Positions 7,829 to 32,847 of a stretch of DNA of 38,251 nt are shown here, one piece after another. The DNA is from an uncultured Saprospiraceae bacterium. Its GTDB lineage: Bacteria; Bacteroidota; Bacteroidia; Chitinophagales; Saprospiraceae. Under the pieces are notes generated by a model that saw nothing but the letters and a program-made list of their open reading frames with translations, ran no database searches and was not told the origin of the DNA. The DNA is taken from NCBI GenBank assembly GCA_937969415.1, contig CALBWK010000076.1:1-38251 (forward strand). The letters run 5' to 3'. Numbering within the stretch: position 1 is the first letter of the stretch; the number at the start of each line of letters is the position of its first letter. Both the position numbers and the translations under genes were made by a program.

Positions 7829-7982
7829 CCTGTTAGTTAATTGTTATAAAGAGACGGAAATCAACATTTGAATATCAGTCCGATATCTTTTCAATACTTT
7901 ATACATGAAGATATCTCATATGTAAAATTTATGCATGTTATCTCCGCATAAACTACTACTTAATTCACATCAACAAGATAAA

Positions 7983-8022
7983 TCAATTATTCACATCGCC
8001 GAATGTGAGTAATTGTTGATAA
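7983..8022. promoter_or_regulatory. Inverted repeat with DnaA-box-like sites
   Basis: The arms at 7983-7996 and 8003-8016 match at 12 of 14 positions around the 6-nt spacer CGCCGA. TTATTCACA at 7987-7995 fits the relaxed DnaA-box consensus TTWTNCACA. The reverse complements of 8004-8012 (TTACTCACA) and 8014-8022 (TTATCAACA) each miss it by one base. It could be a DnaA-binding site, an operator for the divergent promoters, or part of an origin. The sequence alone does not decide. Confidence 0.4.
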
Positions 8023-8276
8023 AGGCTCGATTATAAGCAAAACAAGGGTTGATATAGAGTTGGGCTACTGTTAATAGTGATGACTTTCACCAACAAGTAT
8101 ATTACACGGTAAGAAATGATAATAAGATTATACCCGTACTAACAAGCTTAATAATAGCAATCTGTTTTTATTTAATTAAGAATCATATTTATTAAAAGGA
8201 GTTGTGAATTGTTGATATCCTCAAATATTTAGAACACATCTGAATAGTCAAGAATGATGAACAAGCTTTGCTTTCA

Positions 8277-8284
8277 TACCTTTG
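8277..8284 (+). promoter_or_regulatory. -7 box for ctaA
   Basis: TACCTTTG is an exact TAnnTTTG match 7 bp before the preferred ctaA start, which would give a nearly leaderless mRNA. No TTG -33 element is obvious. The box lies inside the longer 5' extension of the open frame, which argues for the downstream ATG. Confidence 0.45.
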
Positions 8285-8291
8285 TATCGTC

Positions 8292-9344
8292 ATGAAGTAT
8301 AGAAGTATTGTCAAGTATTGGCTGTATGCTGGTTGCATCTTGGTTTTCTTCCAAGTTGTTATTGGTGGTGTTACAAGGATAACTGGATCTGGTTTGTCTA
8401 TTACAAAGTGGGAGATTGTAACAGGGACTCTGCCGCCTACTTCTGACGCAGCTTGGCAATCTGAATTTGACCTGTATAAGGAGACACCTCAGTATAAGAA
8501 GATTAACCAAGGAATGTCTCTCAAGGATTTTAAGTTCATCTACTTCTGGGAGTATTTCCATAGGCTATGGGCAAGGATGATGGGCTTCATCTTCTTATTT
8601 CCGTTTATCTTTTTTGTTATCAAGAAATGGATAGACCCCTGGATGATAAGACAACTAGGTTTCGTGATTTTCTGGGCAGCGATGGCGGCTGTCTTTGGTT
8701 GGATTATGGTAGCCAGTGGTTTGGTAGATAGGCCTTGGGTCAACGCCTATAAGTTATCCTTACACTTGGGTATTGCATTGATGACTTTTTCCTTTTTGAT
8801 CTGGGGTACCTTCAAGTCTACAGATGTACAGACTAAAGCCATCAACAATACCAAAATCTATAAACTGGCTATGTGGTTTTTGCTGGCTTTGATCCTTCAG
8901 ATCTTCTTTGGTGCAGTATTATCAGGTATGCGGGCAGCACTTTATTATCCATCGTGGCCCGATCTCAATGGGCAGTATCTTCCAGAGGTCTTATTTGATA
9001 GTACGGCGTGGAGCAAAGAGAATATCCTAGATTACGACAAGGACGCGTTTATGCCTGCGCTGATACATGTCTTACATAGAAATTGGGGCTATGTGGTCTA
9101 CTTCTTCGGTATGTACCTCAGTCTACGCATATTTAAGTACCCGCTGAGGCGCTTATTTTATAGAGGTGCTATTTTGCTGATAGTCTTACTCAATCTGCAA
9201 GTCTTACTAGGAATACTTACCTTGTTGAATACTACTGATACTATTCCTGTCTTCTATGGTGTTATGCATCAAGCTGTGGCACTATGTATATTAGCGGTTT
9301 CATTGTTCCATCTCTTTATATATAAGAGGAGAAACTATACGTAA
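8292..9344 (+). CDS. ctaA: Heme A synthase (COX15/CtaA family)
   Basis: This integral membrane enzyme oxidises the C8 methyl of heme O to the formyl group of heme A for aa3-type cytochrome oxidase. About eight membrane helices can be traced. The first loop carries the family signature G-G-V-T-R-I-T-G-S-G-L-S-I-T-K-W. Heme-ligand candidate histidines occur in helix contexts F-H-R-L-W, S-L-H-L-G, H-V-L-H-R-N-W-G and M-H-Q-A-V-A. The frame is open from 8268, but the M-K-Y-R-S start at 8292 is preferred because the first codons of the longer form overlap a -7 box. Stands alone with a hydrolase gene 15 bp downstream; no cytochrome oxidase genes are in the window. Confidence 0.92.
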   Translation: MKYRSIVKYWLYAGCILVFFQVVIGGVTRITGSGLSITKWEIVTGTLPPTSDAAWQSEFDLYKETPQYKKINQGMSLKDFKFIYFWEYFHRLWARMMGFIFLFPFIFFVIKKWIDPWMIRQLGFVIFWAAMAAVFGWIMVASGLVDRPWVNAYKLSLHLGIALMTFSFLIWGTFKSTDVQTKAINNTKIYKLAMWFLLALILQIFFGAVLSGMRAALYYPSWPDLNGQYLPEVLFDSTAWSKENILDYDKDAFMPALIHVLHRNWGYVVYFFGMYLSLRIFKYPLRRLFYRGAILLIVLLNLQVLLGILTLLNTTDTIPVFYGVMHQAVALCILAVSLFHLFIYKRRNYT

Positions 9345-9359: not shown

Positions 9360-10103
9360 ATGTCCAATAATGAGTTTGAGTATTTAGAGACGAAGGGTGG
9401 CGATAGCGTTCTGCTCCTCTTACATGGGTTGTTTGGGGCAACAGGTAATTTCAAAGGGATTCAGGAGTATTTCGGATCTAAGTTTAATGTGGTAACACCC
9501 ATACTACCTATCCTCACTATGGATGTTAAACAATTGAGTTTAGAATCACTTGTGGAGTATATAGAGGACTTTGTAAAATATAAAGGCTTTACAAAAGTGC
9601 ATCTGGTCGGCAATTCTTTGGGTGGCCATATAGCACAGCTCTTTGCGCTGTCTAATATGGATAAGGTGGCTTCCATAACTCTAACCGGGAGTTCTGGTTT
9701 ATTTGAGAATTCTATGGGCTCTACTTTTCCTAAGCGTGGTGATTATGACTTTGTCGAGAACAAAGCGAAGGCTATATTTTATGATCCTGAAGTAGCCACT
9801 AAGGAAGTGATTGATGAAGTCTTTGATATTGTCAATGATAGAAATAAAGCTTTACGTGTGGTGGTTGCAGCAAAGTCAGCAGTCCGAAACAATCTCAAAG
9901 AACTGATCCATAAAATCACTGCACCTGTCCTCTTAGTTTGGGGTAAGCAAGATACTGTAACTCCTAGCTGGGTGGGTGAGAAGTTCCACGAGTTATTACC
10001 CAATTCTAGGTTGGAGCTTTTTGACAAGTGTGGCCATGCGCCTATGATGGAGTTGCCGCAACAATTCAATGAAACCTTGGAGGATTTTTTGTCTAAAGTC
10101 TGA
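9360..10103 (+). CDS. Alpha/beta hydrolase
   Basis: The 247-aa cytoplasmic hydrolase has the full catalytic triad. The nucleophile is Ser86 in the elbow G-N-S-L-G-G, the acid is Asp198 in V-W-G-K-Q-D-T-V-T-P, and the base is His226 in K-C-G-H-A-P-M-M-E. The oxyanion-hole strand L-L-L-L-H-G-L-F-G lies at 18-26. A cap domain spans roughly 115-175. Substrate cannot be told; relatives include esterases, haloperoxidase-like enzymes and C-C hydrolases. It begins 15 bp after ctaA on the same strand, so the two are probably co-transcribed. Confidence 0.88.
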   Translation: MSNNEFEYLETKGGDSVLLLLHGLFGATGNFKGIQEYFGSKFNVVTPILPILTMDVKQLSLESLVEYIEDFVKYKGFTKVHLVGNSLGGHIAQLFALSNMDKVASITLTGSSGLFENSMGSTFPKRGDYDFVENKAKAIFYDPEVATKEVIDEVFDIVNDRNKALRVVVAAKSAVRNNLKELIHKITAPVLLVWGKQDTVTPSWVGEKFHELLPNSRLELFDKCGHAPMMELPQQFNETLEDFLSKV

Positions 10104-11372: not shown

Positions 11373-13721
11373 TTAAGGCTGTTGTATTTTCTTTTTCAGC
11401 TCTTCAGCTTTCTTCGCTCGTTGCATTGGGTTCTCTCCCCTACTCGACCCTCTTGGTCCTTGTCTTCTTTTGAATAATTCAAATCTTGTAGGACTAGATG
11501 AAGGTTGCATTGTGTTGTTAGATACATCGACATCGGCAGTTTCTAGGTATGGATCCAATACGATATCCACAACTTTTTTATTCAAGACAAATGACTTATT
11601 GACAGTATCTCCGAACCTCCATATTTCAGCAGGTATACGTTTAACGTCAGAAGTACCATCTGCATATTTGAACTCTAAAATGACAGGCATTGGAATCCCT
11701 TCACTTTCTAATGATAAAGTATAAAAGTGTGGATCCTTTTCTACCAAGGCTTTCTCCTCAGGACTTAGACTAGCGAGATAGTCATCGTATTCTTTCTTAT
11801 CAATAGCATCGGTATCGAGTGGATCGTAATCAGTGTAATAGTCTTCTATACTAGAGTCTCTTTCGTTAAGTGTCTCTGGAATAGCATCTCTATTTCTTTC
11901 ACGTGTGATGTCATAAGTTGTGGCCTTTCTATTGGCTTTGGCTTCTGCTTCATTGACTTCTGGATTCTTGGTATTGATTTGCTTGTACTCTACCTTAGTC
12001 AACTTTTGATCTACGTGATCATTAGTATAGAACCATCCTCTCCAGAACCAATCCAAATCAAAAGCTGAGGCATCTTCCATCGTTCTAAAGAAGTCAGCAG
12101 GTGTCGGATGCTTGAAAGCCCATCTCTGACAATACTCCTTAAAGGCATAATCAAACAACTCTCTGCCCATCACTGATTCTCTCAATATGTTCAAAGCGGT
12201 TGCTGGCTTTCCATAAGCGTTATTTCCGAATTGAAATATGGATTCTGAGTTGGTCATAATTGGAGAGATCTTGTCTTTATCTCCTTTCATATAATCGACG
12301 ATCTTATGTGCTGGCCCTCTTCTAGAAGGATAGTTTCTTTCCCAGTGTTGCTCCGTTAGATATTGGACAAAAGTATTGAGCCCTTCATCCATCCAAGTCC
12401 ACTGTCTCTCATCAGAGTTGATGATCATTGGAAACCAGTTGTGCCCTACTTCATGGATGATTACACCGATGTGGCCATATTTCATTCGCTGAGAGTAAGT
12501 ACCGTCCTCTTCACATCGACCATAGTTAAAGCAGATCATCGGATATTCCATACCCATATTACCATCTATAGACCAAGCGACTGGATAGGGATAGTCTATA
12601 GTATAATGAGAAAACCACTTTACTGTATGCGCTACAGCTTTAGTAGAATATTTGTTCCAGAGACAATCTCCTTCTTTAGTCCACATAGAGGCAGCCATTA
12701 CAGTACGACCATCATCCATAGGTACACCCACAGCATCCCAGATAAATCTTCTAGAGGTGGCAAAGGCGAAGTCTCTAACATTATCTGCTTTGAACTTCCA
12801 CGTCTTGGTCTTCGAAGGCACACCATCTCCAGCTGCTTCTATTCTGTCATCGGCTTCCTCCAATGTAGAAATTGTGACAGGTTGGAGATCTTCTTTCATG
12901 GCAGACTTAAGTCTTTTCTTCTGCTCGCCACTGAGTACTTTATCAGCATTTTGTAATTCTCCTGAGGCTGCGACGAGGTGATCATTAGGTACAGTGATAT
13001 TCACTTCGTAATCTCCAAAGACAAGAGCAAACTCTCCCCTACCAAGAAATTGTTTATTCTGCCACCCATTCACATCATCGTATACACACATACGCGGGAA
13101 GTATTGGGCGATGACATATACATTATGTCCATCATCAAAGGGTTCGTATCCACTTCGACCACCGACTTCTTTTGTGTTATTGATATTGTACCACCAATCG
13201 ATACTGAAGGTCACTGATTGTCCTTTCGCTAAGGGCTTAGGCAGTTCAACCCGCATCATCGTTTTATTAATAAAATACGGCATGGCTTTACCACTAGAAT
13301 TCTTAATAGAGGTAATATTAAATCCACCTTCAAAGCTAGGCGCAATTCTTTCGATACCTGCAGGGCTCACACGTTCTCCAATAGAGGAAGAACGGATATC
13401 ATGAGAGTGTGAATCTTGTGCTCTTACATTTTGATCAAGCTGTAACCATAGATAAGATAGAGCATCTGGAGACTGGTTGTAATAGGTGATGGTTTCTTCT
13501 CCAGTTAGGGTTTGCTTTTCATCATCTAGGACAAGGTCCATCTTGTAATCGGCCCGTTGTTGCCAATACTCGTGACCCGGTGCTCCTGAAGCTGTTCTGT
13601 AGACATTAGGTGAAGGAAGGTCCTGACCTAGTTGTCTGAATTTGCTTTGGTTATAATTATCTACTTGCGCTGATACGGCAAATGCTAAACTCATAGATAT
13701 TATAAAAAGTAATTGTCTCAT
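11373..13721 (-). CDS. M1-family metallopeptidase, secreted
   Basis: A zinc aminopeptidase-like enzyme of 782 aa. It has a signal peptide (M-R-Q-L-L-F to A-V-S-A-Q, about 19 residues). The zinc site H-E-V-G-H lies at 423-427 with the third ligand Glu446 (W-M-D-E-G-L-N-T-F), giving the M1 spacing HExxH-x18-E. The usual exopeptidase motif GAMEN is replaced by G-M-E-Y-P near 390, as in several Bacteroidota homologues. The C-terminal region (about 580-782) is charged and ends in a basic, proline-rich tail with no clear sorting domain. The frame could be read from a TTG 21 bp upstream, but the ATG at 13721 starts directly at the signal peptide. A TACCTTTA -7-like box (one mismatch) lies at 13747-13754. 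Peptide substrates are unknown. Confidence 0.93.
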   Translation of the reverse strand: MRQLLFIISMSLAFAVSAQVDNYNQSKFRQLGQDLPSPNVYRTASGAPGHEYWQQRADYKMDLVLDDEKQTLTGEETITYYNQSPDALSYLWLQLDQNVRAQDSHSHDIRSSSIGERVSPAGIERIAPSFEGGFNITSIKNSSGKAMPYFINKTMMRVELPKPLAKGQSVTFSIDWWYNINNTKEVGGRSGYEPFDDGHNVYVIAQYFPRMCVYDDVNGWQNKQFLGRGEFALVFGDYEVNITVPNDHLVAASGELQNADKVLSGEQKKRLKSAMKEDLQPVTISTLEEADDRIEAAGDGVPSKTKTWKFKADNVRDFAFATSRRFIWDAVGVPMDDGRTVMAASMWTKEGDCLWNKYSTKAVAHTVKWFSHYTIDYPYPVAWSIDGNMGMEYPMICFNYGRCEEDGTYSQRMKYGHIGVIIHEVGHNWFPMIINSDERQWTWMDEGLNTFVQYLTEQHWERNYPSRRGPAHKIVDYMKGDKDKISPIMTNSESIFQFGNNAYGKPATALNILRESVMGRELFDYAFKEYCQRWAFKHPTPADFFRTMEDASAFDLDWFWRGWFYTNDHVDQKLTKVEYKQINTKNPEVNEAEAKANRKATTYDITRERNRDAIPETLNERDSSIEDYYTDYDPLDTDAIDKKEYDDYLASLSPEEKALVEKDPHFYTLSLESEGIPMPVILEFKYADGTSDVKRIPAEIWRFGDTVNKSFVLNKKVVDIVLDPYLETADVDVSNNTMQPSSSPTRFELFKRRQGPRGSSRGENPMQRAKKAEELKKKIQQP

Positions 13722-13921
13722 AATTTTTACTGTGATTTTCAATCGCTAAAGGTAAAGAATACAAGTGTAGGATAGCACTAAGGTTCAGTTAATTACCCGA
13801 CAGTGAAGATGCGTTTTTTAATACCTATGGCACGTAACCTATATGTCTGTCTTATCAAGAGAGCTAATAACAACACCAACATATTAATATTTGTTTTAAT
13901 ATATTTATTTGAAATTCAGTT

Positions 13922-14468: not shown

Positions 14469-15218
14469 CTATTCTCTTAACCAAAGTTCATCTTCTACTT
14501 CAAATCCAAGGATACCAACATCCTTCTGTACGAAGTATCTATAGTCAGGTTCTGCGTCTATATGAGTACCTAAAGCATACTCGACTACATCATTGTATAG
14601 TGAGTTGTTGAGTGTTATTGATTGGTGAAAGGTCTGCTTGGTGTTTTCATAATAGCCGCTTCCTATAAAGTGTCGTAACCAGAAGTTTCTGATAGGGCTA
14701 TTGGCCCTATCCTGATATAGACTTATGATGTTTCTCTTTTCTTGATTAGAATGATCCTGAACTACTGTCCTCAGCTCTAGGGTCAATTTATCGCTACCTA
14801 GTAAGTTATTGAGAAATGAGACATAGATTACTTCATTCTTTTGACACAAGAAGGTCGTGTGCTCAATTGATATATCACTCGAAGCAAATATTCTCTCCTT
14901 GGCAATGTAATGACCTCGTTCCACAACATTCCAAACTGTTGTTCTTGCACCGCTTGTAAATAGGATGTTATCGTCTAGTTCTAGTGCACAGATATCTGGA
15001 CTCCACCTGTAGGACTCAGCATCTATAAACTGCGTCTCTTCTAGTACTATCACATCGCATACAAAAGGGTTGTTTGTTTCGCTACATGTATCTCCACTTG
15101 AGATCACTTCCAAAGTAGTTTCATTGCAAGGAAGAGATACATCTCGTGGAATGTTCTCTAGTTCTTCTCTATTACAACTTATTAGTAGAAGCGGTAGGAG
15201 TAATGTTAGGTATTTCAT
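14469..15218 (-). CDS. Unrecognised lipoprotein
   Basis: The 249-aa protein starts with a lipoprotein signal (M-K-Y-L-T-L-L-L-P-L-L-L-I-S-C, lipobox Cys15). The mature chain has several cysteines in its first 80 residues (N-P-F-V-C-D, S-P-D-I-C-A) and is predicted mostly beta. I recognise no domain. It is probably anchored in the outer membrane or on the surface. It converges with the preceding secreted-protein gene (7 bp between stops). Confidence 0.7.
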   Translation of the reverse strand: MKYLTLLLPLLLISCNREELENIPRDVSLPCNETTLEVISSGDTCSETNNPFVCDVIVLEETQFIDAESYRWSPDICALELDDNILFTSGARTTVWNVVERGHYIAKERIFASSDISIEHTTFLCQKNEVIYVSFLNNLLGSDKLTLELRTVVQDHSNQEKRNIISLYQDRANSPIRNFWLRHFIGSGYYENTKQTFHQSITLNNSLYNDVVEYALGTHIDAEPDYRYFVQKDVGILGFEVEDELWLRE

Positions 15219-15332: not shown

Positions 15333-15346
15333 GTTCCACGTGGAAC
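15333..15346. other. parS-like centromere site 1
   Basis: Perfect 14-bp palindrome GTTCCACGTGGAAC in an intergenic region; the flanking A and T extend it to 16 bp. It matches the ParB-binding parS family (consensus TGTTnCACGTGnAACA) apart from the outermost base on each side. It is the first of three copies within 1.3 kb. Confidence 0.7.
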
Positions 15347-15446
15347 TTATCTCTTTGATGCTTGATGTCAAGCAATATAAGTTCATTCTGATTTAAGTTC
15401 AGTATTCTCTTTATACACAGCCCTGCTAAAATTGGGTCTTGTCGTA

Positions 15447-15462
15447 TGTGACATATGTCACT
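15447..15462. promoter_or_regulatory. CRP/FNR-type palindromic operator
   Basis: TGTGACATATGTCACT contains the perfect 14-bp palindrome GTGACATATGTCAC and matches the CRP half-site layout TGTGA-N6-TCACA with one mismatch. It lies 26 bp before the EGF-like lipoprotein gene, close to where the -33 element would sit relative to TATATTTG at 15477-15484. A CRP/FNR-family regulator is the natural reader, but none is encoded here. Confidence 0.45.
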
Positions 15463-15476
15463 ATGCTACAAAGCTC

Positions 15477-15484
15477 TATATTTG
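15477..15484 (+). promoter_or_regulatory. -7 box for the EGF-like lipoprotein gene
   Basis: TATATTTG is an exact TAnnTTTG match only 4 bp before the ATG, which would imply a leaderless or near-leaderless transcript. The palindromic operator lies 14 bp upstream. It may be a chance match in AT-rich DNA. Confidence 0.35.
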
Positions 15485-15488
15485 AAAT

Positions 15489-15953
15489 ATGAGACTATAT
15501 GTACAACTTCTTCTTTGCTTAATTATATCTAGCTGCGGCAGTGATGACGAGTGCCCAGAGAACGCAAGACTAATCAACGGTAACTGTATTTGTGATATAC
15601 ATTATGAGGGGGAGTTTTGCGATGAGGAAAGAGGATTTAAGTTTTGGGGAACTTGGAACGCCAAGAGACGCTGCAATTTCGGCCCGCAATTTTTTATAGA
15701 CAGTTCGTTTAATATAAGTTCTCGGGCAATAGACTCCATTGTTATACAATCAGGGAATCTATTTTTTAATTATCCAATTGTTGGTCGTATACAATCCTCA
15801 ACCTTGATTGGATTTAACTATTTCCAGCCTCCTATGTCATCTATATTTGATGCTAGGATGGACTATGTGGGTCTTGATTCTATTGTCTTTCAGGTGGATG
15901 AAGTAACAACTTCAGGAGGAATGTGGCCGTGCACGTTCATCTTAACAAAGTAA
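15489..15953 (+). CDS. Small lipoprotein with an EGF-like cysteine module
   Basis: The 154-aa protein has a lipoprotein signal (L-L-L-C-L-I-I-S-S-C, lipobox Cys16). A compact module with the pattern C-x8-C-x-C-x8-C follows (E-C-P-E-N-A, N-C-I-C-D, G-E-F-C-D, about residues 21-45), like the EGF-like motif seen in other Bacteroidota lipoproteins. The rest (46-154) is predicted beta with two further cysteines and no recognised domain. It is probably a surface lipoprotein; function unknown. Both flanks carry a parS-like palindrome. Confidence 0.7.
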   Translation: MRLYVQLLLCLIISSCGSDDECPENARLINGNCICDIHYEGEFCDEERGFKFWGTWNAKRRCNFGPQFFIDSSFNISSRAIDSIVIQSGNLFFNYPIVGRIQSSTLIGFNYFQPPMSSIFDARMDYVGLDSIVFQVDEVTTSGGMWPCTFILTK

Positions 15954-15961
15954 ATACGCTT

Positions 15962-15975
15962 GTTCCACGTGGAAC
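15962..15975. other. parS-like centromere site 2
   Basis: A second perfect GTTCCACGTGGAAC, preceded by T as in the parS consensus. It lies 9 bp after the EGF-like lipoprotein stop and 629 bp from site 1. Confidence 0.7.
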
Positions 15976-16045
15976 TTGTTCATCCCCTAAAGGGGAGGCC
16001 AGCACTTCAATCAAGCCTACACCAAGAAAATTGGTGTCTCAAGAT

Positions 16046-16239
16046 GCGGGTAGCGGTCCTTCCTTCAGGAAGTTAGAAGGTAGCATAGCAGATATCCCTA
16101 GAGGGGAGGCTGCGCTCTTGAGTTTAGGAACCAAATAATAGTTATTGAATTGCGGGCTGCGGTCCTTCACATTCGACTCACTTTGGTCGCTCAGTGCAGG
16201 CCTTTAGGAAGTTTAGAAGGTAGCATTAGCATAATCCCT
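16046..16239. repeat. Two imperfect direct copies of a short intergenic repeat
   Basis: Copy A (16046-16099) and copy B (16152-16239) both begin GCGGG..GCGGTCCTTC. Both contain AGGAAGTT.AGAAGGTAGCAT and end in ATCCCT. Copy B carries about 35 extra bases in the middle, containing CACTTTGGTCGCTCAGTGCAGG. The inner CCTTC and GAAGG parts can pair as a hairpin. Nearby CCCCTAAAGGGG (about 15986-15997) is also palindromic. This looks like a dispersed, non-coding REP-like element between convergent genes; no coding frame of interest is present. Confidence 0.55.
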
Positions 16240-16251
16240 TTATGGCGAATG

Positions 16252-17559
16252 TTAACTCAAGAGTATCTCCTTAAAGTCCGCATAGTCTTTACTGCAACTC
16301 TTCGCTACCTTCTCTCCACTCATAAATGCCTCTAGCTTAGGAGGAAAGGACACCTTGCCTAAGGCTTCTTTCATCGGTTTCTCAAACTTTCCAGGGTGGG
16401 CAGTTTCGAGGAAGATGGTCTGATGAGTAGGGTGCTTTTTGATATAATTCTTACAAGCAAGATAGCCGACTGCACCGTGTGGATCGGCTTCATAGTTGTG
16501 CTGGGACTGTATTTCTTTTATAGCTTGGTAGGTTTCAGTATCGGTATAGCTGTCACCGGTTATGAAACCTTTTAGCTTGTTCCACGTGGAACTTTCATCC
16601 TGCCCAGTATAGAGCGCTTGCATCCTAGGGAAGTTACTGGGGTTACCGACGTCCATCGCATTAGAGATGGTCGGGACAGAAGGCTTGGCAGTATAAGTAC
16701 CAGAACTGAGATAAGCCGGCACAGTATCATTGGCATTGGTAGCAGCTATGAATTGGTGGATGGGCAAGCCCATCTGTGTAGCCAATAGTCCAGCGGTGAG
16801 GTTCCCAAAGTTGCCAGAGGGAACGGAAAAAACCACTGGTCTAGACTTGTCTTGAACTTGCCTATATCCTTCAAAGTAGTAAAACGACTGAGGGATGAGC
16901 CGAGCTATATTGATAGAATTGGCCGAGCTGAAGTTGTATTTATTTTGAAGATCAGCATCTATAAAAGCCGTCTTGACCAAGTGCTGGCAGTCATCAAATA
17001 CACCATCAATTTCTATAGCAGAAATATTATCTCCCCAGGTCGTCAGTTGCTTTTCTTGGAGTGCGCTGACCTTGCCAGAAGGGTAGAGGATGATCACTTC
17101 TATACCGGGTACTTTGTGAAATCCAGCCGCTACAGCACCACCAGTATCACCACTAGTCGCCACGAGAATGGTCGTCGGTCTGTCTTCGCCTCTAAGAAAA
17201 TAGGACATCAACTCTGCCATAAATCTGGCTCCAAAATCCTTGAAAGCCATTGTCGGACCGTGCCATAATTCTAAGGTAGAAATCTGATCCGTCAGCTGGA
17301 CAAGGGGTGCTTTAAAGTTGATGGCTCTAGCAATGAGTTGGTATAAATCCGACTCTGGAATAGCGTTGCCGATGAGTCGAGAAGCCACTTGAAAACCTAT
17401 TTCTTCAAAGCTGTATTGATCTAAATGCTCTAGAAATTGCTTGTCGAGTTGAGGAATTTCAGTGGGCATATAGAGGCCCTTATCTTGTGGAAATGCATTG
17501 AGCACTGCCTCTTTAAGGTCGACAATGTTGTGCTTATTATTGGTACTATAGAGTTGCAT
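16252..17559 (-). CDS. thrC: Threonine synthase
   Basis: A PLP enzyme that converts O-phosphohomoserine to threonine, the last step of the pathway. The 435-aa length fits the family. The PLP lysine is in T-M-A-F-K-D-F-G-A-R-F (about residue 107). The substrate and phosphate loop A-T-S-G-D-T-G-G-A-V-A lies near 132-142, and S-V-P-S-G-N-F-G-N near 245. It follows thrB with 1 bp between stop and start and is the last gene of the leftward thrA-thrB-thrC operon. A perfect GTTCCACGTGGAAC palindrome is embedded in the reading frame, encoding S-S-T-W-N, in a loop region not containing catalytic residues. Confidence 0.96.
   Translation of the reverse strand: MQLYSTNNKHNIVDLKEAVLNAFPQDKGLYMPTEIPQLDKQFLEHLDQYSFEEIGFQVASRLIGNAIPESDLYQLIARAINFKAPLVQLTDQISTLELWHGPTMAFKDFGARFMAELMSYFLRGEDRPTTILVATSGDTGGAVAAGFHKVPGIEVIILYPSGKVSALQEKQLTTWGDNISAIEIDGVFDDCQHLVKTAFIDADLQNKYNFSSANSINIARLIPQSFYYFEGYRQVQDKSRPVVFSVPSGNFGNLTAGLLATQMGLPIHQFIAATNANDTVPAYLSSGTYTAKPSVPTISNAMDVGNPSNFPRMQALYTGQDESSTWNKLKGFITGDSYTDTETYQAIKEIQSQHNYEADPHGAVGYLACKNYIKKHPTHQTIFLETAHPGKFEKPMKEALGKVSFPPKLEAFMSGEKVAKSCSKDYADFKEILLS
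16579..16592. other. parS-like centromere site 3, inside thrC
   Basis: A third perfect GTTCCACGTGGAAC, preceded by T on the plus strand. It lies 617 bp from site 2 and inside the thrC coding region. Sites embedded in genes are well known for parS. Confidence 0.7.
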
Positions 17560-17560: not shown

Positions 17561-18496
17561 CTAGTATCTTTTTGCGCCCTCTAAGTTGATGGCAGAATTG
17601 TAAATAGTGACGGGTCGCTTCTTATCTTCGAAGAATTTTTGAACAGCATCTGCGATATTATCGGCGACCACAGAGTTGGCACAGAGGGCAAACATCGATG
17701 GTCCCGCTCCCGAAATAGAGAAACCAAGTGCTCCATTTTCCAATGCTAAATCTTTGATAGGATAGAAATCTGGAATCAACTTGGCCCGTTGTGGTTCTAT
17801 AATGACATCTTCTAGAGACCTTTCCAGGAGCCCCAAATCTGATTTGTACATTGCCGCTACGAAGGCCGCAAGATTCCCTGACTGCTTGATATGACTATCT
17901 AGAGGCACATTTTCACTCAGTACATCGCGACTGTCTTTGGTTAATATCTTGATATGCGGAAAGATAACTACTGCCCTCAATCCTGGAATACAGGGAAGGC
18001 CGACCACGTCCAAACTTGGATTATCTCGTATCAAAACGAAACCACCAAAAAGAGAAGGGGCAACATTATCTGCGTGCCAAGCGCCGTCGGCAATTTGCTC
18101 CGCTTCTGTCGCACAACGCAAGATGGTCATCTTATCACACGGAAAATCGAGAAATGCATTCATCGCAAAAGCGCCAGCCGCCGCACTGGATGCCGAACTC
18201 CCCAAACCAGTGCCGACAGGCATCCGCTTATTGAGCTCCATCTTGACCGGCAGATCTTCTATTCCCAAATGTTGCATCACTCGCCAAGCGGCAAATCCCG
18301 CAACGTTCTCTTTTATATTTTTTGAGAGCTTGGATTTGTTGTTTCTGATCAAAGTAATCTCAAGACCCTTTTTTGTCGCATCATTGAGGATAACTTCGTC
18401 TCCTAATTCCTCGATTGCGAAGCCTAGCACGTCATACCCTACGGCGACATTGGCTACAGAGGCAGGAGCGAAGCATTTACAAGGGATAGTTTTCAC
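17561..18496 (-). CDS. thrB: Homoserine kinase
   Basis: A GHMP-family kinase (311 aa) that makes O-phosphohomoserine from homoserine and ATP. The ATP-binding motif is P-V-G-T-G-L-G-S-S-A-S-S-A-A-A near 93-107. The N-terminal strand with A-P-A-S-V-A-N-V-A-V-G-Y-D-V-L-G is the substrate-facing segment of the family, and the C-terminal G-A-L-G-F-S-I-S-G-A-G-P-S is the third GHMP motif. The start is a GTG; no nearer ATG gives the family N-terminus. It sits between thrA (116 bp upstream) and thrC (1 bp downstream). Confidence 0.96.
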   Translation of the reverse strand: MKTIPCKCFAPASVANVAVGYDVLGFAIEELGDEVILNDATKKGLEITLIRNNKSKLSKNIKENVAGFAAWRVMQHLGIEDLPVKMELNKRMPVGTGLGSSASSAAAGAFAMNAFLDFPCDKMTILRCATEAEQIADGAWHADNVAPSLFGGFVLIRDNPSLDVVGLPCIPGLRAVVIFPHIKILTKDSRDVLSENVPLDSHIKQSGNLAAFVAAMYKSDLGLLERSLEDVIIEPQRAKLIPDFYPIKDLALENGALGFSISGAGPSMFALCANSVVADNIADAVQKFFEDKKRPVTIYNSAINLEGAKRY

Positions 18497-18612: not shown

Positions 18613-21069
18613 TTAGAGATGACCGCTCATTCCTAAAATTTCGGCCAATAATCCAGCCGCCGTCACATCAGCCCCAGCACCCGGTCCTCGGACCACAAGA
18701 GGGGTTTCGTTGTAGCGATCAGAATAGATGACAATCATATTATCACTTCCACTCAGAGAGTAGAATGGATTACGACCATCGACAGATTGTAAAGAGATTG
18801 TTCCACGGCCATCTTTGTATTGGGCAATGAAGCGTAGCTTCTCACCGCGACTCTCTGCTTGCTTCGCCATTTCGGTAAAGCGGTCTGTATCTTTTTCTAG
18901 CTCCGTGTAAAAGTTGGCTACACTCTCTGCTTGCAAACAAGCTTCTGAAAGAATAGGCTCAATTGTCACCGCGCTTTCTTCTAGTTCGAAACCTGACTCT
19001 CTCGCGAGAATCAGAATTTTTCTTTTCACATCAGAACCGGAAAGATCTTCTCGAGGATCTGGTTCTGTTAATCCTTTGGCCTGTGCATCCTTGACTACAT
19101 CTATAAATCTTTTGTCCGAAGAAAAATTATTGAAGATGTAAGAAACAGAGCCAGACAGTACCGCCTCCAGTTGGGTTATCCTATCTCCTGTAGTTGTCAA
19201 ACTTTTGAGAGTCGAGATAACTGGGAGACCTGCACCAACATTGGTTTCAAAGTTGAGCGGAATATTTCTAGCGCCTGACAAGGCTTTAAGTTTTTTATAT
19301 CGACTCAGACTACTCGATAAGGCAATCTTGTTTGGTGTCGAGATAGCAATGTTATTTTCTATAATTCTGTGATAGTGCTCAGGAATCAACTTACTCGCTG
19401 TGTTGTCCACAAAAACGGAGTACGGAAAATTCATCTCTATCATCTTATCGATGAACGTACTTATATCTGCTGCCTCAGTGGCTTGGTCTAGTTCACTTTG
19501 GAAATTATCAAAAGGCACCCCTTCCTCAGAGAAAATCATTTTTCTAGAATTGGTTAATCCGTTGAGGACTAATTCTATTTTGCTATTGTCTTTGATGTCC
19601 GAGTAGTGGTCCCTAATCTGTCCGAGTAGGGTAGAGCCGATAAGACCTACGCCGACAACAAATAAGTGTACCTGCTTGTGTTCTGATAAAAAGAAGGCAT
19701 CGTGCACCGCATTAAGCGCTTTGGCTTCATCCTCTTTGTGTACAGCAAAGGTAATATTGAGCTCCGAAGAGCCTTGCGCTATAGCTTCGACATTGATGCC
19801 ATTTTTACCTAAGGTACTAAACAAACGGCCAGATACACCCGGCGCATTTTTCATATGCTCTCCGATCACTGCGAGTAGGCAAAGATCTTTGGTAAGCTTA
19901 GTGGGCTCTATTAGACCTCTATTGGATTCTACCTCGAACTCACTGTCTATCAAGGACTTAGCTCTATCTGTATCGCTGTTTTTTATCGCAATACAGATGG
20001 AGTGTTCAGAAGAGGCTTGGGTTATCATTATTATATTAATCTTACCGTCCGCCATTACTTTGAACAAACGATAGGCAATACCCGGTATACCTTGCATACC
20101 CGATCCCTCTAAGGAAACTAGTGCAATATCTTTTATGGAGGATAGACCCGAAATAACACTGTCTCCCGCAACAACGGCATCGTGTATCAATGTTCCTGGG
20201 TGAGCAGGATTGAATGTATTCTTAATACGCGTTGGGATATTTTTTTCCTTAACAGGTCTTATGGTTGGTGCATAAAGCACCTTGGCACCGAAGTGCGACA
20301 TTTCTGCAGCCTCTAGATAAGTCAATTCTGGAATAGGGTAGGCCTTGGTTACGACACGTGGGTCACTAGTTAAGACTCCATCCACATCTGTCCATATCTC
20401 TAGGACATCAGCATTGAGTGCTGCAGCAAATATGGCTGCACTATAATCTGAACCACCGCGTCCAAGAGTTGTCGTTACACCAGATACCTTTTCTGATCCT
20501 ATAAAACCGGTAATGACATAGATGGCTTTATTGGAGTTGAGCTTATTTGTGATTAGTTGATTTGTTAGTTTAAAATCTACTACGGCAGCACCATAATTAT
20601 CATCTGTCTTGATGAGCTGTCTGGCATCTATATATTCTGCAGGTAGACCTTGACTCTTTATAAAGTGTGATAAGATAAAGGCACAGTTTCTCTCACCAAA
20701 AGAAACGACAAAATCCTTAGTCTTCGGTGAAGCTTCTTGTATGAGACTAACACCGGATAAGAGATCTTTCAGTTTCTGATGGTTCTCATTGAGCTCTTCA
20801 GCTATTTGGTTATAGATAGTCGTATCTAGAAGTTCTTGGGCTACTTGATGTGCCTTAGATATAAACTCTTCGCAGGCTTGTAGATACGCTTGATCATTTG
20901 CTTCTGCTAGACGGACTGTTTTTAACAACAGATCTGTCATCCCACTAAAAGCAGAGACAACGACACAGATTTTAGTGTCTTGCTTGTATTGATCGTGGAC
21001 GATATCTGTCACCAGCCGCAAGCGTTCGGCGCTAGCTACAGACGTTCCACCAAATTTCAGGACCCTCAT
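18613..21069 (-). CDS. thrA: Bifunctional aspartokinase / homoserine dehydrogenase
   Basis: The 818-aa fusion covers the first and third steps of the aspartate pathway. Residues 1-300 form the aspartokinase domain, with K-F-G-G-T-S-V-A at 5-12, F-G-E-R near 126 and T-L-G-R-G-G-S-D-Y near 205. Tandem ACT regulatory domains span about 310-455 (G-I-P-G-I-A-Y-R-L-F; G-V-S-G-R-L-F). Homoserine dehydrogenase starts near 465 with the NAD(P)-binding G-V-G-L-I-G-S-T-L-L, followed by the catalytic-domain signature D-V-K-R-K-I-L-I-L-A-R. Feedback inhibition by threonine is known for this class. It heads the operon; the promoter must lie in the 84-bp gap before the divergent ABC permease gene. I found no leader peptide or attenuator. 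Confidence 0.97.
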   Translation of the reverse strand: MRVLKFGGTSVASAERLRLVTDIVHDQYKQDTKICVVVSAFSGMTDLLLKTVRLAEANDQAYLQACEEFISKAHQVAQELLDTTIYNQIAEELNENHQKLKDLLSGVSLIQEASPKTKDFVVSFGERNCAFILSHFIKSQGLPAEYIDARQLIKTDDNYGAAVVDFKLTNQLITNKLNSNKAIYVITGFIGSEKVSGVTTTLGRGGSDYSAAIFAAALNADVLEIWTDVDGVLTSDPRVVTKAYPIPELTYLEAAEMSHFGAKVLYAPTIRPVKEKNIPTRIKNTFNPAHPGTLIHDAVVAGDSVISGLSSIKDIALVSLEGSGMQGIPGIAYRLFKVMADGKINIIMITQASSEHSICIAIKNSDTDRAKSLIDSEFEVESNRGLIEPTKLTKDLCLLAVIGEHMKNAPGVSGRLFSTLGKNGINVEAIAQGSSELNITFAVHKEDEAKALNAVHDAFFLSEHKQVHLFVVGVGLIGSTLLGQIRDHYSDIKDNSKIELVLNGLTNSRKMIFSEEGVPFDNFQSELDQATEAADISTFIDKMIEMNFPYSVFVDNTASKLIPEHYHRIIENNIAISTPNKIALSSSLSRYKKLKALSGARNIPLNFETNVGAGLPVISTLKSLTTTGDRITQLEAVLSGSVSYIFNNFSSDKRFIDVVKDAQAKGLTEPDPREDLSGSDVKRKILILARESGFELEESAVTIEPILSEACLQAESVANFYTELEKDTDRFTEMAKQAESRGEKLRFIAQYKDGRGTISLQSVDGRNPFYSLSGSDNMIVIYSDRYNETPLVVRGPGAGADVTAAGLLAEILGMSGHL

Positions 21070-23508: not shown

Positions 23509-24213
23509 ATGTTAGAGAACTTAAACAGAATAGAAGTCAAAAGTCCTGTAGATCTGATTATATCTCAGATAAAAGATCTTATAAGCTCAGGATCAATCAA
23601 ACCAGGCGAGAAACTACCCCCAGAGAGAAAGTTAGCAGAGCATCTCGGTGTAAGTCGTGGACAGGTGAGAGAGGCAATTAATAAGCTACAATTCTATGGG
23701 ATACTCAAGGTACAGCCGCAGAGTGGCACTATTGTAACTGGTATTGGCATCACTGCACTTGAGGGTTTGATTACGGATATCTTAGAGATAGAAGATGTTG
23801 ACTTCAAGTCCCTCATAGATACGAGAGTGCTGCTCGAAAAGGAGGCAGCTAGACTCGCTGCTATTAATAGAACTGCAGATGACCTCGTAGAACTTAATAA
23901 AGCACTGAATGCTTACGAGTATAAGCTAGAGATGGGAGATCAGGCCGTAGAGGAAGATTTACTTTTCCACGTCAAAATAGGAGAGGCAAGTAAGAACTCA
24001 GTACTCAAGTCTCTTATGATTATTATCACTCCAGATATCGTCAATAGTTTTATTAAGCTCAAGGTTTGTGACGAGACTAGTGACAGAAGGACTATAGAAG
24101 AGCATCGAGACATCCTAGCTATGATAGCGGAACAGAACCCACAAGGAGCAGTAAACGCTATGGAATTGCACCTTCAAAATATCATCGGATTCAGTAAAAC
24201 TTACAATTCATAA
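23509..24213 (+). CDS. GntR-family regulator, FadR/FCD subfamily, of the alginate locus
   Basis: The 234-aa regulator has an N-terminal winged helix-turn-helix (about 10-75) with P-G-E-K-L-P-P-E-R-K-L-A-E and G-V-S-R-G-Q-V-R-E-A-I, the classic GntR recognition helix. A C-terminal all-helical FCD domain follows (about 90-230), with candidate metal ligands D-T-R (start of the domain), F-H-V-K-I, E-H-R-D-I-L and L-H-L-Q-N. FCD regulators bind small carboxylates. In this context the effector is likely an alginate intermediate such as DEH, KDG or KDPG (inference). It stands just before susC and has tandem operators on its own promoter. Related regulators occur in alginate loci of flavobacteria. 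Confidence 0.9.
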   Translation: MLENLNRIEVKSPVDLIISQIKDLISSGSIKPGEKLPPERKLAEHLGVSRGQVREAINKLQFYGILKVQPQSGTIVTGIGITALEGLITDILEIEDVDFKSLIDTRVLLEKEAARLAAINRTADDLVELNKALNAYEYKLEMGDQAVEEDLLFHVKIGEASKNSVLKSLMIIITPDIVNSFIKLKVCDETSDRRTIEEHRDILAMIAEQNPQGAVNAMELHLQNIIGFSKTYNS

Positions 24214-24503
24214 GGTCAGATTATTTTCTGTCCATATTTATAAGATATAATGGCTGTGAATTTTTATTTAAGGCATCGCTTAGAACTGAAATTAACCACA
24301 AGTAAAATTTATCCTTAAGATATATTTTGAATCAGAAATCCTTGCTAACAAAATGACTTTGAATATGAAACTATGAAGAAACTAAACAATTAATTATTAG
24401 GCACAATAAGCCTATTTCCAATTAACTGATGAGATGCCAGAAAATATACTTAGACGGCGTCTGTTATACTTCTTTACTAACACCTTAAAAAGGTAATTAA
24501 TCT

Positions 24504-27500
24504 ATGAAAAAAATTATTAAAAAAACTAAGCTGATCACGTCAGTCTTACCTTATCAAAGAATGTTGTATTCTTTGATATTCTTAATGGGCTTTGGCCTAT
24601 TTTCTTCTCTGGATGCTCAGGTTTCAGGGAATCTAACAGATGATAATGGAGACCCATTAATTGGTGTCAATGTTATGGTTAAAGGAACTACTACAGGAAC
24701 GATTACTGATATTGATGGCAACTACTCTATCGATGCAAGTCCTTCTGATGTTTTGGTATTTAGTTATGTGGGTTATAAAGATTCCGAGGTTACCGTAGGC
24801 AATCAGCAGAACATCACAATTTCTCTAATGAGTGATTCTGAGGTGATGGAAGAGATTGTTGTTATCGGTTACGGTACGCGAAAAAAATCGCACGTAACAG
24901 GCGCTATCTCTCAGATAGAAGGTACTGAAGTGGCCGCTATCCAAGCCAATAGGGTGGATGATGCCATAGCCGGTAAACTTGCTGGGGTACTTATCCAGAA
25001 TCAAGATGGAGCGCCAGGTGCAGATCCTAAAATTCAGATTAGAGCAGCAGCTTCTATCTCTGGAGATTCTAATCCACTTATAGTCGTTGACGGTTATCCG
25101 ATTTCTGGTAGTCTTGCTACAGTTAATCCTAATGATATCCAAAGTCTTGAGATACTTAAGGATGCAGCTTCTGCAGCTATCTATGGGTCAAGGGGTGCCA
25201 ATGGTGTTGTTCTTGTAACAACAAAAAAAGGCAGATCAGGTAAGCCATCAATAACATATGATGGTTATGTAAGTACGTCTCACAGATATGTGCAGGACAA
25301 CATACTTGCCGATGCATCTGATATGGCTGCATCAATGGAGCAGTTGAGAGACGCAGGTGCTGTTGATTTTTCTCTTTTTGATGTGACGACAGAAGACGAC
25401 CAAGGAAATGAGGTTCTTGTGACACCGGGAGAAGACATATTTAACTACAGACTTAATGGATACAGAAATGCTCCAGACGTAGTACCAGTAGAAGACTGGT
25501 TATTTCAGAATGGATCAAGTACAAGTCATAATCTAGGAATTAGTGGAGGGACAGACGATATAAATTATTATGCGTCAGTAGGATATCTTAATACTCAAGG
25601 TGTCGTTAGAACTCAAGCTTTTGAGAGATATAATGCCAGATTAAATCTAGATGCGAAGTTGTCAAATAAACTGAAAGCAGGTTTGAGCATAAATGGATTT
25701 TTAGGAGACAGAGATATTGTGGGTCATGACATGAGAGATTTATTAAGAGCCTATAGTGTACACCCGATATACCATACAGAAGAATCTATCAGATTTGTAC
25801 AAGAACTTAATGACGAGGCAGTTTCTTTAGGTCTTCCTTCGTTTGATTCAGGATTTAGAGGTGGATCTGATGCACCATGGAATCAAAGTATCTCGACTCT
25901 GCAACCAGGGATGACAGCTCAAGACTGGCACTATGGTAGAAGTGGAAACGGGATAGCAGGTTCAGGAGATGCAGGGCCAGCAACAAAATTAGATAACACA
26001 GATAGATCCCAGAAAACTTTGTTTGGTAATGCCAACGCTTATCTTCAATATGAAATAGTTGATGGCCTTAATATCAAAACAGTTGTCGGAGCAGATAATA
26101 GAAACACGAGAGATTTTTTCTGGAGAGGACTAGAGTTTGACTCTAGAGCGAGAACTACACAGACGCGACTACAAGAGTCAGTTGTAGATAGATCTTCTGT
26201 ATTAAGTGAGACAACATTAAATTTTGCGAAGAACATCAATGGTGTTCATGATGTAGGAGCAGTGTTAGGAGTAGAGTTTCAAACCTTCTTTATAAATGGA
26301 ATTTCTCTTAGTGGAACAAATGTACCATTCGGACAACCGCAAAACTTTGCACTCTTAGATCCTGCTGACGTTTCGATTTCTGAAAGAGATGAGACGATAG
26401 CAAGACAAAGTGTGTTTGGTAGAGTTAACTACGCTTACGATAATAGATACTTAGTCTCCCTTTCATTAAGAAGAGATGGAGATTCTCGATTTGGAGTTAA
26501 CAACAGATTTGAAGTATTTCCAGCTATATCTTTAGGATGGAATGTACACAATGAGGGATTCTGGAATTCTAGCTTATTATCTGATCTTAGGTTAAGATTT
26601 AGTAGAGGTTCATTAGGAACTACATCGTTTCTTGGAGCATTTAGTTCTCAAAGTTTACTTGACCCTAGAGCAACTATCTTTGGTACAGGATTCTTAATAC
26701 CATCAGATGTAGAAAATCCAGACCTTACATGGCAGACGAATACGGAGACCAACATTGGTGTTACCCTAGGCTTTTTGGACAATAGATTTAGAGCAGGAGT
26801 TGACTATTATACATCTGATATAGAAGATATTTTGATTAGACAAAGTGTCTCTGAAGTTGTAGGTACAACAGATATCGCCTTGAACTCAGGTGATGTAAGA
26901 AGTTCTGGAATAGAAATTGAGTTGGGTGCTAATCTTGTCAACAATAGTGATTTTACATGGTCTATTGGTGCCAATGCGTCAACTGTAAATACAGAAATTA
27001 CAGCCTTAGGAAACTTAGAGGAATTACCGCGTTCTGATTACGGGCAGTCAGGAAGACACCCAGTGTGGAGAAACTATGTCGGTGGTCAAATAGGAGAAAT
27101 GTGGGGACTAGAGACAACAGGAGTGGTGCCTCTTTCTGAGCTCGCAAATCCTGTAGAATTTCCAGGACAAGAAAGTGGATGGAGTTATGTTGTAGACCAG
27201 CAAGCACCAGGAGAAGAAGGACACGGAGAGATAGATGCCAGTAGAACAGTAGAAGAAGGCGGTGACCTAGTTAAGATCGGTAACAACACACCAGATTTTT
27301 ATTATGGATTCAATACGTCTCTAACCTACAGAAACTTGGATTTCTCTATGCAGTTCCAAGGCGCTCAAGGAGGAGAAGTGTGGAATGTTGATCCTCTATA
27401 CTATGGATCACAGTGGGGTAGAGCATTAAGCGCAGATTTTGATGCGAACGGTGACGGTCTTGCAGATAGCAATAATCAGCACTTTGCTCGTAACAGAGAT

Positions 27501-27788
27501 GAGACTGATGCAATGATTCAAGATGCTTCTTATTTAGCATTAAGAAACTTTACAATTGGTTACAATCCTAGAATAGCAAGATTATCTAATGCAGGTGTAG
27601 GTTCTTTTAGAGTTTATGTTGCAGCTACCAATCTATTGTACATAATGGGAGAGGATTATACTTCATTTAACCCAGAAGGTGTTGAGATCACGAATGGTGG
27701 TTACCTAGGTCCAACCACTTACGGATTACAAGTAGGTGCAAGTCCAGTAGTAAGAAGCTTTTCACTAGGTGTTAATCTTAAATTCTAA
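24504..27788 (+). CDS. SusC-like TonB-dependent oligosaccharide transporter
   Basis: The 1094-aa outer-membrane importer has a signal peptide (about residues 1-39, ending S-L-D-A-Q). A carboxypeptidase-regulatory-like beta domain spans about 42-115 (G-D-P-L-I-G-V-N-V and D-I-D-G-N-Y-S-I). The bridging E-E-I-V-V-I-G-Y-G-T motif leads into the plug (about 125-245, with P-L-I-V-V-D-G and I-L-K-D-A-A-S-A-A-I-Y-G-S-R-G-A-N-G-V). A 22-strand barrel ends in V-N-L-K-F. These are diagnostic of the SusC/RagA family. It is followed 12 bp later by its SusD lipoprotein partner. Cargo is inferred as alginate oligosaccharides from the downstream catabolic genes. A 290-bp region precedes it; I found no operator copy there. 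Confidence 0.95.
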   Translation: MKKIIKKTKLITSVLPYQRMLYSLIFLMGFGLFSSLDAQVSGNLTDDNGDPLIGVNVMVKGTTTGTITDIDGNYSIDASPSDVLVFSYVGYKDSEVTVGNQQNITISLMSDSEVMEEIVVIGYGTRKKSHVTGAISQIEGTEVAAIQANRVDDAIAGKLAGVLIQNQDGAPGADPKIQIRAAASISGDSNPLIVVDGYPISGSLATVNPNDIQSLEILKDAASAAIYGSRGANGVVLVTTKKGRSGKPSITYDGYVSTSHRYVQDNILADASDMAASMEQLRDAGAVDFSLFDVTTEDDQGNEVLVTPGEDIFNYRLNGYRNAPDVVPVEDWLFQNGSSTSHNLGISGGTDDINYYASVGYLNTQGVVRTQAFERYNARLNLDAKLSNKLKAGLSINGFLGDRDIVGHDMRDLLRAYSVHPIYHTEESIRFVQELNDEAVSLGLPSFDSGFRGGSDAPWNQSISTLQPGMTAQDWHYGRSGNGIAGSGDAGPATKLDNTDRSQKTLFGNANAYLQYEIVDGLNIKTVVGADNRNTRDFFWRGLEFDSRARTTQTRLQESVVDRSSVLSETTLNFAKNINGVHDVGAVLGVEFQTFFINGISLSGTNVPFGQPQNFALLDPADVSISERDETIARQSVFGRVNYAYDNRYLVSLSLRRDGDSRFGVNNRFEVFPAISLGWNVHNEGFWNSSLLSDLRLRFSRGSLGTTSFLGAFSSQSLLDPRATIFGTGFLIPSDVENPDLTWQTNTETNIGVTLGFLDNRFRAGVDYYTSDIEDILIRQSVSEVVGTTDIALNSGDVRSSGIEIELGANLVNNSDFTWSIGANASTVNTEITALGNLEELPRSDYGQSGRHPVWRNYVGGQIGEMWGLETTGVVPLSELANPVEFPGQESGWSYVVDQQAPGEEGHGEIDASRTVEEGGDLVKIGNNTPDFYYGFNTSLTYRNLDFSMQFQGAQGGEVWNVDPLYYGSQWGRALSADFDANGDGLADSNNQHFARNRDETDAMIQDASYLALRNFTIGYNPRIARLSNAGVGSFRVYVAATNLLYIMGEDYTSFNPEGVEITNGGYLGPTTYGLQVGASPVVRSFSLGVNLKF

Positions 27789-27800
27789 AAAAACTTGAAC

Positions 27801-29099
27801 ATGAAAAAATATATATATTTCTTGCCATTAGTTCTTTTGATGGCATGTACTAGTGACTTAGATCAATTTCCGCCAAACATTGCAAGTGCGGATTCGTTAA
27901 CAGATTTTGATGGTGTGCTTAATGCAGCTTATTACTATCAGTTAGGTACAGTAACGCCGATGGCTGTTATGGGTGACTTTAGAGCAGATAATGCTCTTAT
28001 GTTTGAGGCACCTTTCGATGAGTTTGACAAGTACGGTCCAGATTTAGTCCAGATGGATGAGCAGTTTTTTAGTCCTTTTTATACGGCTAGTTACAAGTCT
28101 ATATTGAGTTCTAATATTGTTATCGAAAACTCTTCAGACGCTACGGAAATAGGAGAGGCGCGATTTTTAAGAGCCTTAAGTTACTTCAAGCTTGTAAGAG
28201 TGTTTGGTGGCGTTACAATTAATCTATCCGATTCTCCAAGTGTAACAGACCAAGACATATTGGAACGCCAATCGCCTTCTACAGTCTATAATGATGTAAT
28301 TATTCCAGACTTAGAGGCAGCTATTGCTGCGTTGGGGTCTACTGCATCTAATGGCAGAGCTTCAAGGCTTGCAGCTCAAGGCTTACTTGGTAAGGTGTAT
28401 ATGCAGATGGGAGAATTCTCTAATGCTGAGGCGGAATTATCTGCAGTAGTTAATGCGGCAGGTGAGGCAGGAATTGCTTTACAAAGTGATTTTTCTCAAG
28501 TTTTTGGTGTTGACTTTGACTTGAATCCTGAAATAATTTTTGCAACGCAGGTATCAAGTTCTATAGTTGATGAATATGGATTTTCTGAATTTTGGTCTTG
28601 GTCAGGTGGTTTGGATACTAAGTCTCTAGAGCCTCTTGATGTAGATCTTATTGATGCTTTTGATAATAGTCCTGGAGACTTAAGAAGAGCAGTTACCATT
28701 GATGAAGGTTTACTAAGTTCTCCTAAGTTTCCGCAGACAGGCGGACCAGATCATGATTGGATAGAATTGAGACTTGCAGATGTTATTCTTCTTTATGCTG
28801 AGGCATTAAATGAAAATGGTAATGCTTCCGCTGCCTTGACTGAATTGAATAAAATCAGAACAAGAGCAGGACTAGAGAACTCAACTGCTTCTGGCCAAGG
28901 TGAAATAAGAACTGCAATTGCTCAGGAAAGAAGACTTGAACTTGCCTTTGAAGGACAGAGATGGTTTGATTTAGTAAGAACTGGAACTGTAGATGCAGAG
29001 ATGGGTCAGGCAATCAATAGTGACTATCACTTGTTCCCTATCCCTAACTCGGAAATACTTTCTAGCTTTATGGTTATTACACAGAACCCAGGATATTAA
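27801..29099 (+). CDS. SusD-like surface glycan-binding lipoprotein
   Basis: The lid partner of the SusC transporter. The lipobox is L-L-M-A-C with Cys16. The fold is TPR-rich and helical: A-R-F-L-R-A-L-S-Y-F-K-L-V-R-V-F-G-G is the SusD hallmark (about 110-130), Y-N-D-V-I-I-P-D-L-E-A-A-I near 168, and R-L-A-A-Q-G-L-L-G-K-V-Y-M near 198. The C-terminal E-R-R-L-E-L-A-F-E-G-Q-R-W-F-D-L-V-R-T block (about 385-405) is definitive. At 432 aa it is shorter than typical SusD (500-550). The frame is open from a TTG at 27795, but the ATG at 27801 begins the signal peptide. Two terminators follow it. Confidence 0.95.
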   Translation: MKKYIYFLPLVLLMACTSDLDQFPPNIASADSLTDFDGVLNAAYYYQLGTVTPMAVMGDFRADNALMFEAPFDEFDKYGPDLVQMDEQFFSPFYTASYKSILSSNIVIENSSDATEIGEARFLRALSYFKLVRVFGGVTINLSDSPSVTDQDILERQSPSTVYNDVIIPDLEAAIAALGSTASNGRASRLAAQGLLGKVYMQMGEFSNAEAELSAVVNAAGEAGIALQSDFSQVFGVDFDLNPEIIFATQVSSSIVDEYGFSEFWSWSGGLDTKSLEPLDVDLIDAFDNSPGDLRRAVTIDEGLLSSPKFPQTGGPDHDWIELRLADVILLYAEALNENGNASAALTELNKIRTRAGLENSTASGQGEIRTAIAQERRLELAFEGQRWFDLVRTGTVDAEMGQAINSDYHLFPIPNSEILSSFMVITQNPGY

Positions 29100-29109
29100 G
29101 ATTTTTTAT

Positions 29110-29138
29110 AAGTGAAAGGAGTTCTACTCCTTTCACTT
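29110..29138 (+). terminator. Strong terminator after susD
   Basis: A perfect 12-bp stem (AAGTGAAAGGAG with CTCCTTTCACTT) encloses a 5-nt loop and is followed by TATTTT. It lies 11 bp after the susD stop and should end or attenuate the susCD transcript. Confidence 0.85.
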
Positions 29139-29196
29139 TATTTTAAAATTCGCATTTATAAAAAGATAGAATAGTTTTTAGTTTTTTCATTCTGAT

Positions 29197-29224: not shown

Positions 29225-29287
29225 TTTTTATTTTTTCAATGCCAGTGCTCTATCATTTTTATAGAGTGACAATTTTATACATTCCAA

Positions 29288-30972: not shown

Positions 30973-31025
30973 GTAAGAAATTAATAAGAAAGTTAATATA
31001 TATTTTAAATTAGAACTAACACAAA

Positions 31026-32843: not shown

Positions 32844-32847
32844 AAAA

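Follow-up and report, generated by a model that had tools for sequence, protein, structure and literature searches.

In the ParABS system of Myxococcus xanthus, the parS consensus contains the 14-mer GTTCCACGTGGAAC, ParB binds this sequence in gel shifts, and two substitutions in parS lower ParB binding about ten-fold; 22–24 such sites are arranged there upstream of parAB, roughly 30 kb from ori. Intragenic parS sites are already known, with 9 of the 10 sites predicted in Pseudomonas aeruginosa lying within coding sequences. According to a review, parS sites and par operons are usually found in the ori domain, and a study that applied Hi-C and coverage to 12 gut bacteria, including two Bacteroidetes, placed ori by parS and skew and described it as not systematically coincident with dnaA.

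Compared with these systems, the 38,251-base stretch of DNA from a Saprospiraceae bacterium analysed here (the window throughout) carries the same 14-mer core as M. xanthus, in a cluster that likewise appears to lie near ori, but with three copies and with parAB on another contig. An in-gene parS is common to P. aeruginosa and to this locus, and we found no published account of a single in-gene site conserved in its codons across a family. Our placement of ori follows the same logic as the gut study; in neither of the two Bacteroidetes of that study was a known condensin found, whereas a full-length SMC is encoded in the genome studied here. A search of the literature on parS in coding sequence, in thrC or in Bacteroidota, conducted largely outside subscription journals, returned no title or abstract on a thrC parS kept across a family, and the in-register thrC copy is the new part of the finding. 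Our overall reading, which we regard as very probable, is of a parS centromere cluster served by a distant ParAB, with an origin upstream of ctaA and with the thrC copy under selection at the DNA level.

Three palindromes and the partition genes

Scanning the window, we recovered three exact copies of GTTCCACGTGGAAC, at 15333–15346, 15962–15975 and 16579–16592 (all unstranded features), spaced 629 and 617 bp apart and contained within 1.26 kb, precisely as the first-pass annotation of this DNA had listed its perfect palindromes. By simple arithmetic, about 0.00014 copies of a given 14-mer are expected in 38,251 bases, so that the annotation was also right to call the three copies more than chance. 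The sole other match in the window at three or fewer mismatches, at 7624, has three mismatches. Assignment to the parS family held as well when the copies were set against the 16-mer consensus TGTTnCACGTGnAACA: its inner bases are matched 14/14 in all three, and with the outer pair included the agreement is 15/16 for copies 2 and 3 (T...T on the plus strand) and 14/16 for copy 1 (A...T). The three palindromes are best read, from their sequence, as the chromosomal parS cluster of this Saprospiraceae bacterium.

Copy 1 lies between the ORFs 14469–15218 and 15489–15953, copy 2 starts 8 bases past the stop of the second of these ORFs, downstream of thrC, and copy 3 is embedded in thrC, where it covers the codons xGT TCC ACG TGG AAC for residues 323–327 (SSTWN). 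The location of copy 3 had been given correctly, and the description of the other two as intergenic stands if these small ORFs, neither of which has a Pfam match, are genes or are of no consequence. In the interval from copy 2 to thrC (15976–16240), inspection by eye showed recurring similar short stretches with the look of a dispersed repeat, among them a palindrome resembling CCCCTTTAGGGGA and a phrase resembling GGAAGTTTAGAAGGTAGCAT that is repeated.

When the search was extended to the draft genome (255 contigs, 3.84 Mb), GTTCCACGTGGAAC had no occurrence at zero or one mismatch outside the cluster; the one-mismatch search that the annotation had proposed thus found the copies not scattered but all within the 1.26 kb. 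At two mismatches it occurred in two places, compared with 13 places at up to two mismatches for the reversed-pattern control, and GTTNCACGTGNAAC, at up to one mismatch, gave four additional one-mismatch places against 8 for its reversed control.

No parA or parB gene lies in the window, in agreement with the first reading, and ParA, ParB and SMC are all encoded on other contigs of the genome. Its one ParB match is on contig C63, in an overlapping parA–parB pair, and the closest solved relatives of this ParB are ParB and Spo0J proteins; the SMC is full-length (G000 C6:9138–12644, L264, E 2.3e-279). Across the family, ParB was found in 219 of 226 genomes, with 3 of the 7 lacking a match carrying the site; the site was carried by 174/217 genomes with ParB versus 3/7 without (p = 0.037), a test of little weight given that the genomes are drafts and that the figure of 217 assumes the 224 genomes searched for the site to be among the 226. 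The distance from parB to parS was 0.95–3.42 Mb, or 12.5–46% of the chromosome, in five relatives, so that parAB does not lie near the parS region in these genomes, as it usually, though not universally, does near origins. Given the placement of par operons in the ori domain by the review, a distant parAB is unusual.

Position of the replication origin

We searched 15 near-closed or few-contig relatives and computed distances from parS to dnaA and parB in five of them, taking the main contig as circular. dnaA was 1.46, 1.98, 2.04, 2.36 and 3.79 Mb from parS, which corresponds to 19–47% of the chromosome. For GC skew, the chromosomes of four genomes (G061, G162, G088 and G233) were each sampled at twenty places of 20 kb. 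In G061 and G162, skew passes from negative to positive next to parS and reverses about half a chromosome away, and finer, though not gap-free, sampling located the local minimum at a distance from parS of 31 kb for G061 and of 14 kb for G162. The cumulative skew of the window itself is lowest near 8.0 kb, which is 7.3 kb from copy 1; this minimum is shallow and nearly equalled by lows at 14 and 20 kb. All three minima are no more than about 2 kb from ctaA (8268–9344, plus strand; haem A synthase family, Pfam COX15-CtaA, E 7.8e-85). The earlier suggestion that the cluster is origin-proximal is therefore supported by skew, as read from these sequences, and not by dnaA; mapping parS against dnaA, which had been proposed alongside skew, would have misled. 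The first reading recognised neither that relatives in much of the family keep the thrC copy in register nor that the window itself contains the likely origin.

Perfect DnaA boxes (TTATCCACA) are concentrated upstream of ctaA, nine in 0.72 kb in G061 and six in 0.32 kb in G233, with fewer in G162 and G088. ctaA was present in 26 of 100 loci; in 18 of these 26, the best box cluster is located between −1200 and +300 bases from the ctaA start, with a score of at least 4 in 11 and a weak one in 7. In G233, a second DnaA-box cluster is seen at the parS copies (G233:C1:2044901–2045500, L194/L195), with 14 boxes at up to one mismatch, 3 of them perfect.

The corresponding gap in the window (7829–8267, unstranded) is AT-rich (29% GC), is flanked by divergent genes and coincides with the window skew minimum. 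No perfect DnaA box was present in the window; one-mismatch boxes numbered 20 against 11.8 expected, a count reached by 1 of 100 shuffles, and were dispersed over its length. The gap itself holds two boxes at one mismatch and six at up to two, a weak signal that 7 of 500 Markov shuffles matched. On the strength of skew and of the relatives, we consider this gap upstream of ctaA the likely origin.

Could the sites be parS and the origin nevertheless lie at dnaA as usual, with parS having moved away? Contigs start within 209 bases of dnaA in 6 of 16 genomes (G061, G088, G162, G233, G234 and G236), as is customary; the skew signal of G088 is weak, positive samples at 2.25 and 2.70 Mb counting against a turn at parS, that of G233 is uninformative, and nine 7-kb samples of G180 gave no clear answer on the origin. 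However, in the two genomes with a readable pattern, G061 and G162, the turn of the skew is found at parS rather than at dnaA, and the DnaA-box clusters are at ctaA, none comparable being found in the 20 kb on the downstream side of dnaA in four genomes. The gut Hi-C study likewise speaks against a systematic origin at dnaA, and we consider an origin there very unlikely.

Returning to the parS cluster with its likely origin at ctaA, what can be read directly in the sequence is where the sites lie and how they cluster, the constraint on the codons and, for two relatives, the position of the skew turn; ParB binding, spreading, SMC loading and origin firing at ctaA are inferred. ParB, made together with ParA at a distant locus, would load on the three palindromes and spread across the origin-proximal DNA; ParA would then move ParB, and ParB would recruit SMC. 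Replication would most likely start some 7 kb away in this window, in the AT-rich gap that precedes ctaA, and not at the dnaA locus. parS, together with the ctaA-side DnaA boxes where these are present, may serve as an origin marker for a large and mostly uncultured family in whose examined genomes dnaA does not lie near the likely origin.

The site in relatives and around the threonine genes

The exact 14-mer was found in 39 of 59 relatives (40 of 60 genomes with our own), and the reversed control was absent from all 60 except G033. Where relatives had several copies, these were on one contig within 3.3 kb in 28 of 29 cases, the exception being G011, with copies on two contigs. In the wider set of 224 family genomes, each at least 95% complete, 177 (own included) carried the exact 14-mer and 47 did not; among the matches listed, those of G064 and of G092 are each split between two contigs. 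G235 has a stray exact copy at G235:C2:3631180, 1.7 Mb from its main cluster. A sample of the phylum gave 18 of 118 genomes, counting our own and two others of its family, indicating that the exact form of the site is not phylum-wide. In six genomes from other families of the order (L288–L293), exact copies occur as one single and as five pairs with spacings between 38 bp and 3.3 kb; among the matches listed for their 20-kb stretches, none of 18 query proteins from the window appeared at E 1e-20.

In the window, thrC (16252–17559; threonine synthase, Pfam Thr_synth_N and PALP, like 1vb3, E 4.7e-101) shares the minus strand with thrB (17561–18496; homoserine kinase of the GHMP type, Pfam GHMP_kinases_N/C) and thrA (18613–21069; fused aspartokinase/homoserine dehydrogenase, Pfam AA_kinase, ACT and Homoserine_dh). 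On the other side of the cluster are an M1 peptidase (11373–13742, minus strand, Pfam Peptidase_M1), which is a frequent parS neighbour in relatives, and, in the same neighbourhood, an alpha/beta hydrolase (9360–10103, plus strand, Pfam Abhydrolase_1). Translations from 23509–35568 are what we take to be a GntR-type regulator, a SusC/SusD-like pair, a cupin, a transporter, a reductase, a sugar kinase, an aldolase and a lyase-like protein, a gene set that presumably resembles a uronate or alginate use locus. Among named genomes, most relatives of ThrC carry the label Saprospiraceae and some the label Lewinella, and the nearest shares 92% identity. In the locus alignment with the nearest relative, L037, copy 2 is kept in place; no site aligns with copy 1, but L037 has its own copy nearby.

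We gathered 80 ThrC loci by peptide patterns outside the site, and so without reference to parS. The stretch available contained an exact copy in 58 of them, inside thrC in 48. Lewinella cohaerens DSM 23179 and Flavilitoribacter nigricans DSM 23189, both cultured members, have two exact copies each, immediately downstream of thrC. At least 1 kb of downstream sequence was present in 65 loci, 40 with an embedded copy and 25 without: a second site, at up to one mismatch, lay within −1.5 to +2.5 kb in 38 of the 40, and an exact copy was near in 8 of the 25, six of these having two copies. When 21 genomes drawn from the 32 loci lacking an exact embedded copy were searched, 17 had a site at up to one mismatch and 4 had none anywhere at that threshold. 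An association of the embedded copy with thrC lying near the ctaA-side genes was not supported (Fisher p = 0.38): among 49 of the 80 loci with at least 6 kb downstream, five duplicate genes included, 19 were embedded and 9 not where genes of this block were present, and 11 embedded and 10 not where they were absent. G180 and G173 are examples of genomes whose embedded copy lies away from ctaA.

CACGTG-centred palindromes are targets of other regulators too, and with one copy in thrC and others just downstream of it in many relatives, the palindrome could be pictured as the operator of a transcription factor for the threonine genes, its nearness to the origin being incidental. We hold this to be highly improbable. 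In most of the 80 loci the copies lie inside or after thrC and not at the operon promoter; L283–L285, from three genomes, have a parS stretch without thrC and keep three exact copies next to the M1 peptidase, at 4.5 kb from ctaA; elsewhere in the order, other families carry their exact copies away from these genes; and a genome-wide count of three, together with the match to a ParB-bound sequence, fits parS.

Codon constraint on the copy inside thrC

Copy 3 reads AGT TCC ACG TGG AAC within thrC (minus strand), and copies inside thrC of relatives sit at the same aligned codon. After removal of five identical duplicates from the 80 loci, 75 distinct ThrC genes were available for a codon test. 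STWN is encoded at the site in 45 of them, and in 44 of the 45 the codons are precisely those of parS, TCC ACG TGG AAC after NGT, where the codon usage of the same genes predicts 0.5; the only STWN gene with other codons is L070. The residue before STWN is C in 18, G in 13, S in 9 and R in 4, which are the four spelled by NGT, and the base following AAC is A in 42 of 44. Within the 44 genes, each of the S, T and N columns shows a single codon, and of 157 conserved-residue columns the one that comes next stands at 93%, a comparison that is partly circular given that these genes were chosen by the site, so that 44/45 is the number to weigh. A one-mismatch site was present in four genes without an exact copy (L064, L099, L112 and L114).

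Selection of STWN for ThrC function, with the palindrome as a by-product, has a probability close to negligible: W is common at this column also in genes without the site (30/36 rows), but one codon combination accounts for nearly all STWN genes, site-less genes show a wide variety of residues at this spot, only residues spelled by NGT precede it, and the 36-row alignment has no invariant column in segment 313–339.

The parS copy is instead kept in register in much of the family, and selection on the DNA site would thereby fix four threonine synthase amino acids in an otherwise variable segment; judging from the codons, the ThrC protein appears to have part of its sequence set by the centromere. 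Such codon-level evidence points to an in-gene bacterial centromere site under strong selection across divergent species, overriding choice at the protein level, and would make the thrC copy a natural dual-coding site, testable by recoding.

On a ThrC tree of 76 rows from which the site-flanking columns were excluded, 10 changes of the site trait are needed, compared with 24.5 in shuffles, so that the thrC copy looks old, with several losses or regains; counting well-supported branches alone, 3 changes are needed. A further proposal, that the centromere became locked into thrC deep in Saprospiraceae history, with DNA-level selection writing part of ThrC and with ParB loading in thrC coupling threonine gene expression to origin segregation, we regard as unlikely. 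In the AlphaFold model of ThrC (mean pLDDT 90.4), the residues of the site begin a helix, 322–332, that follows a loop of varying length.
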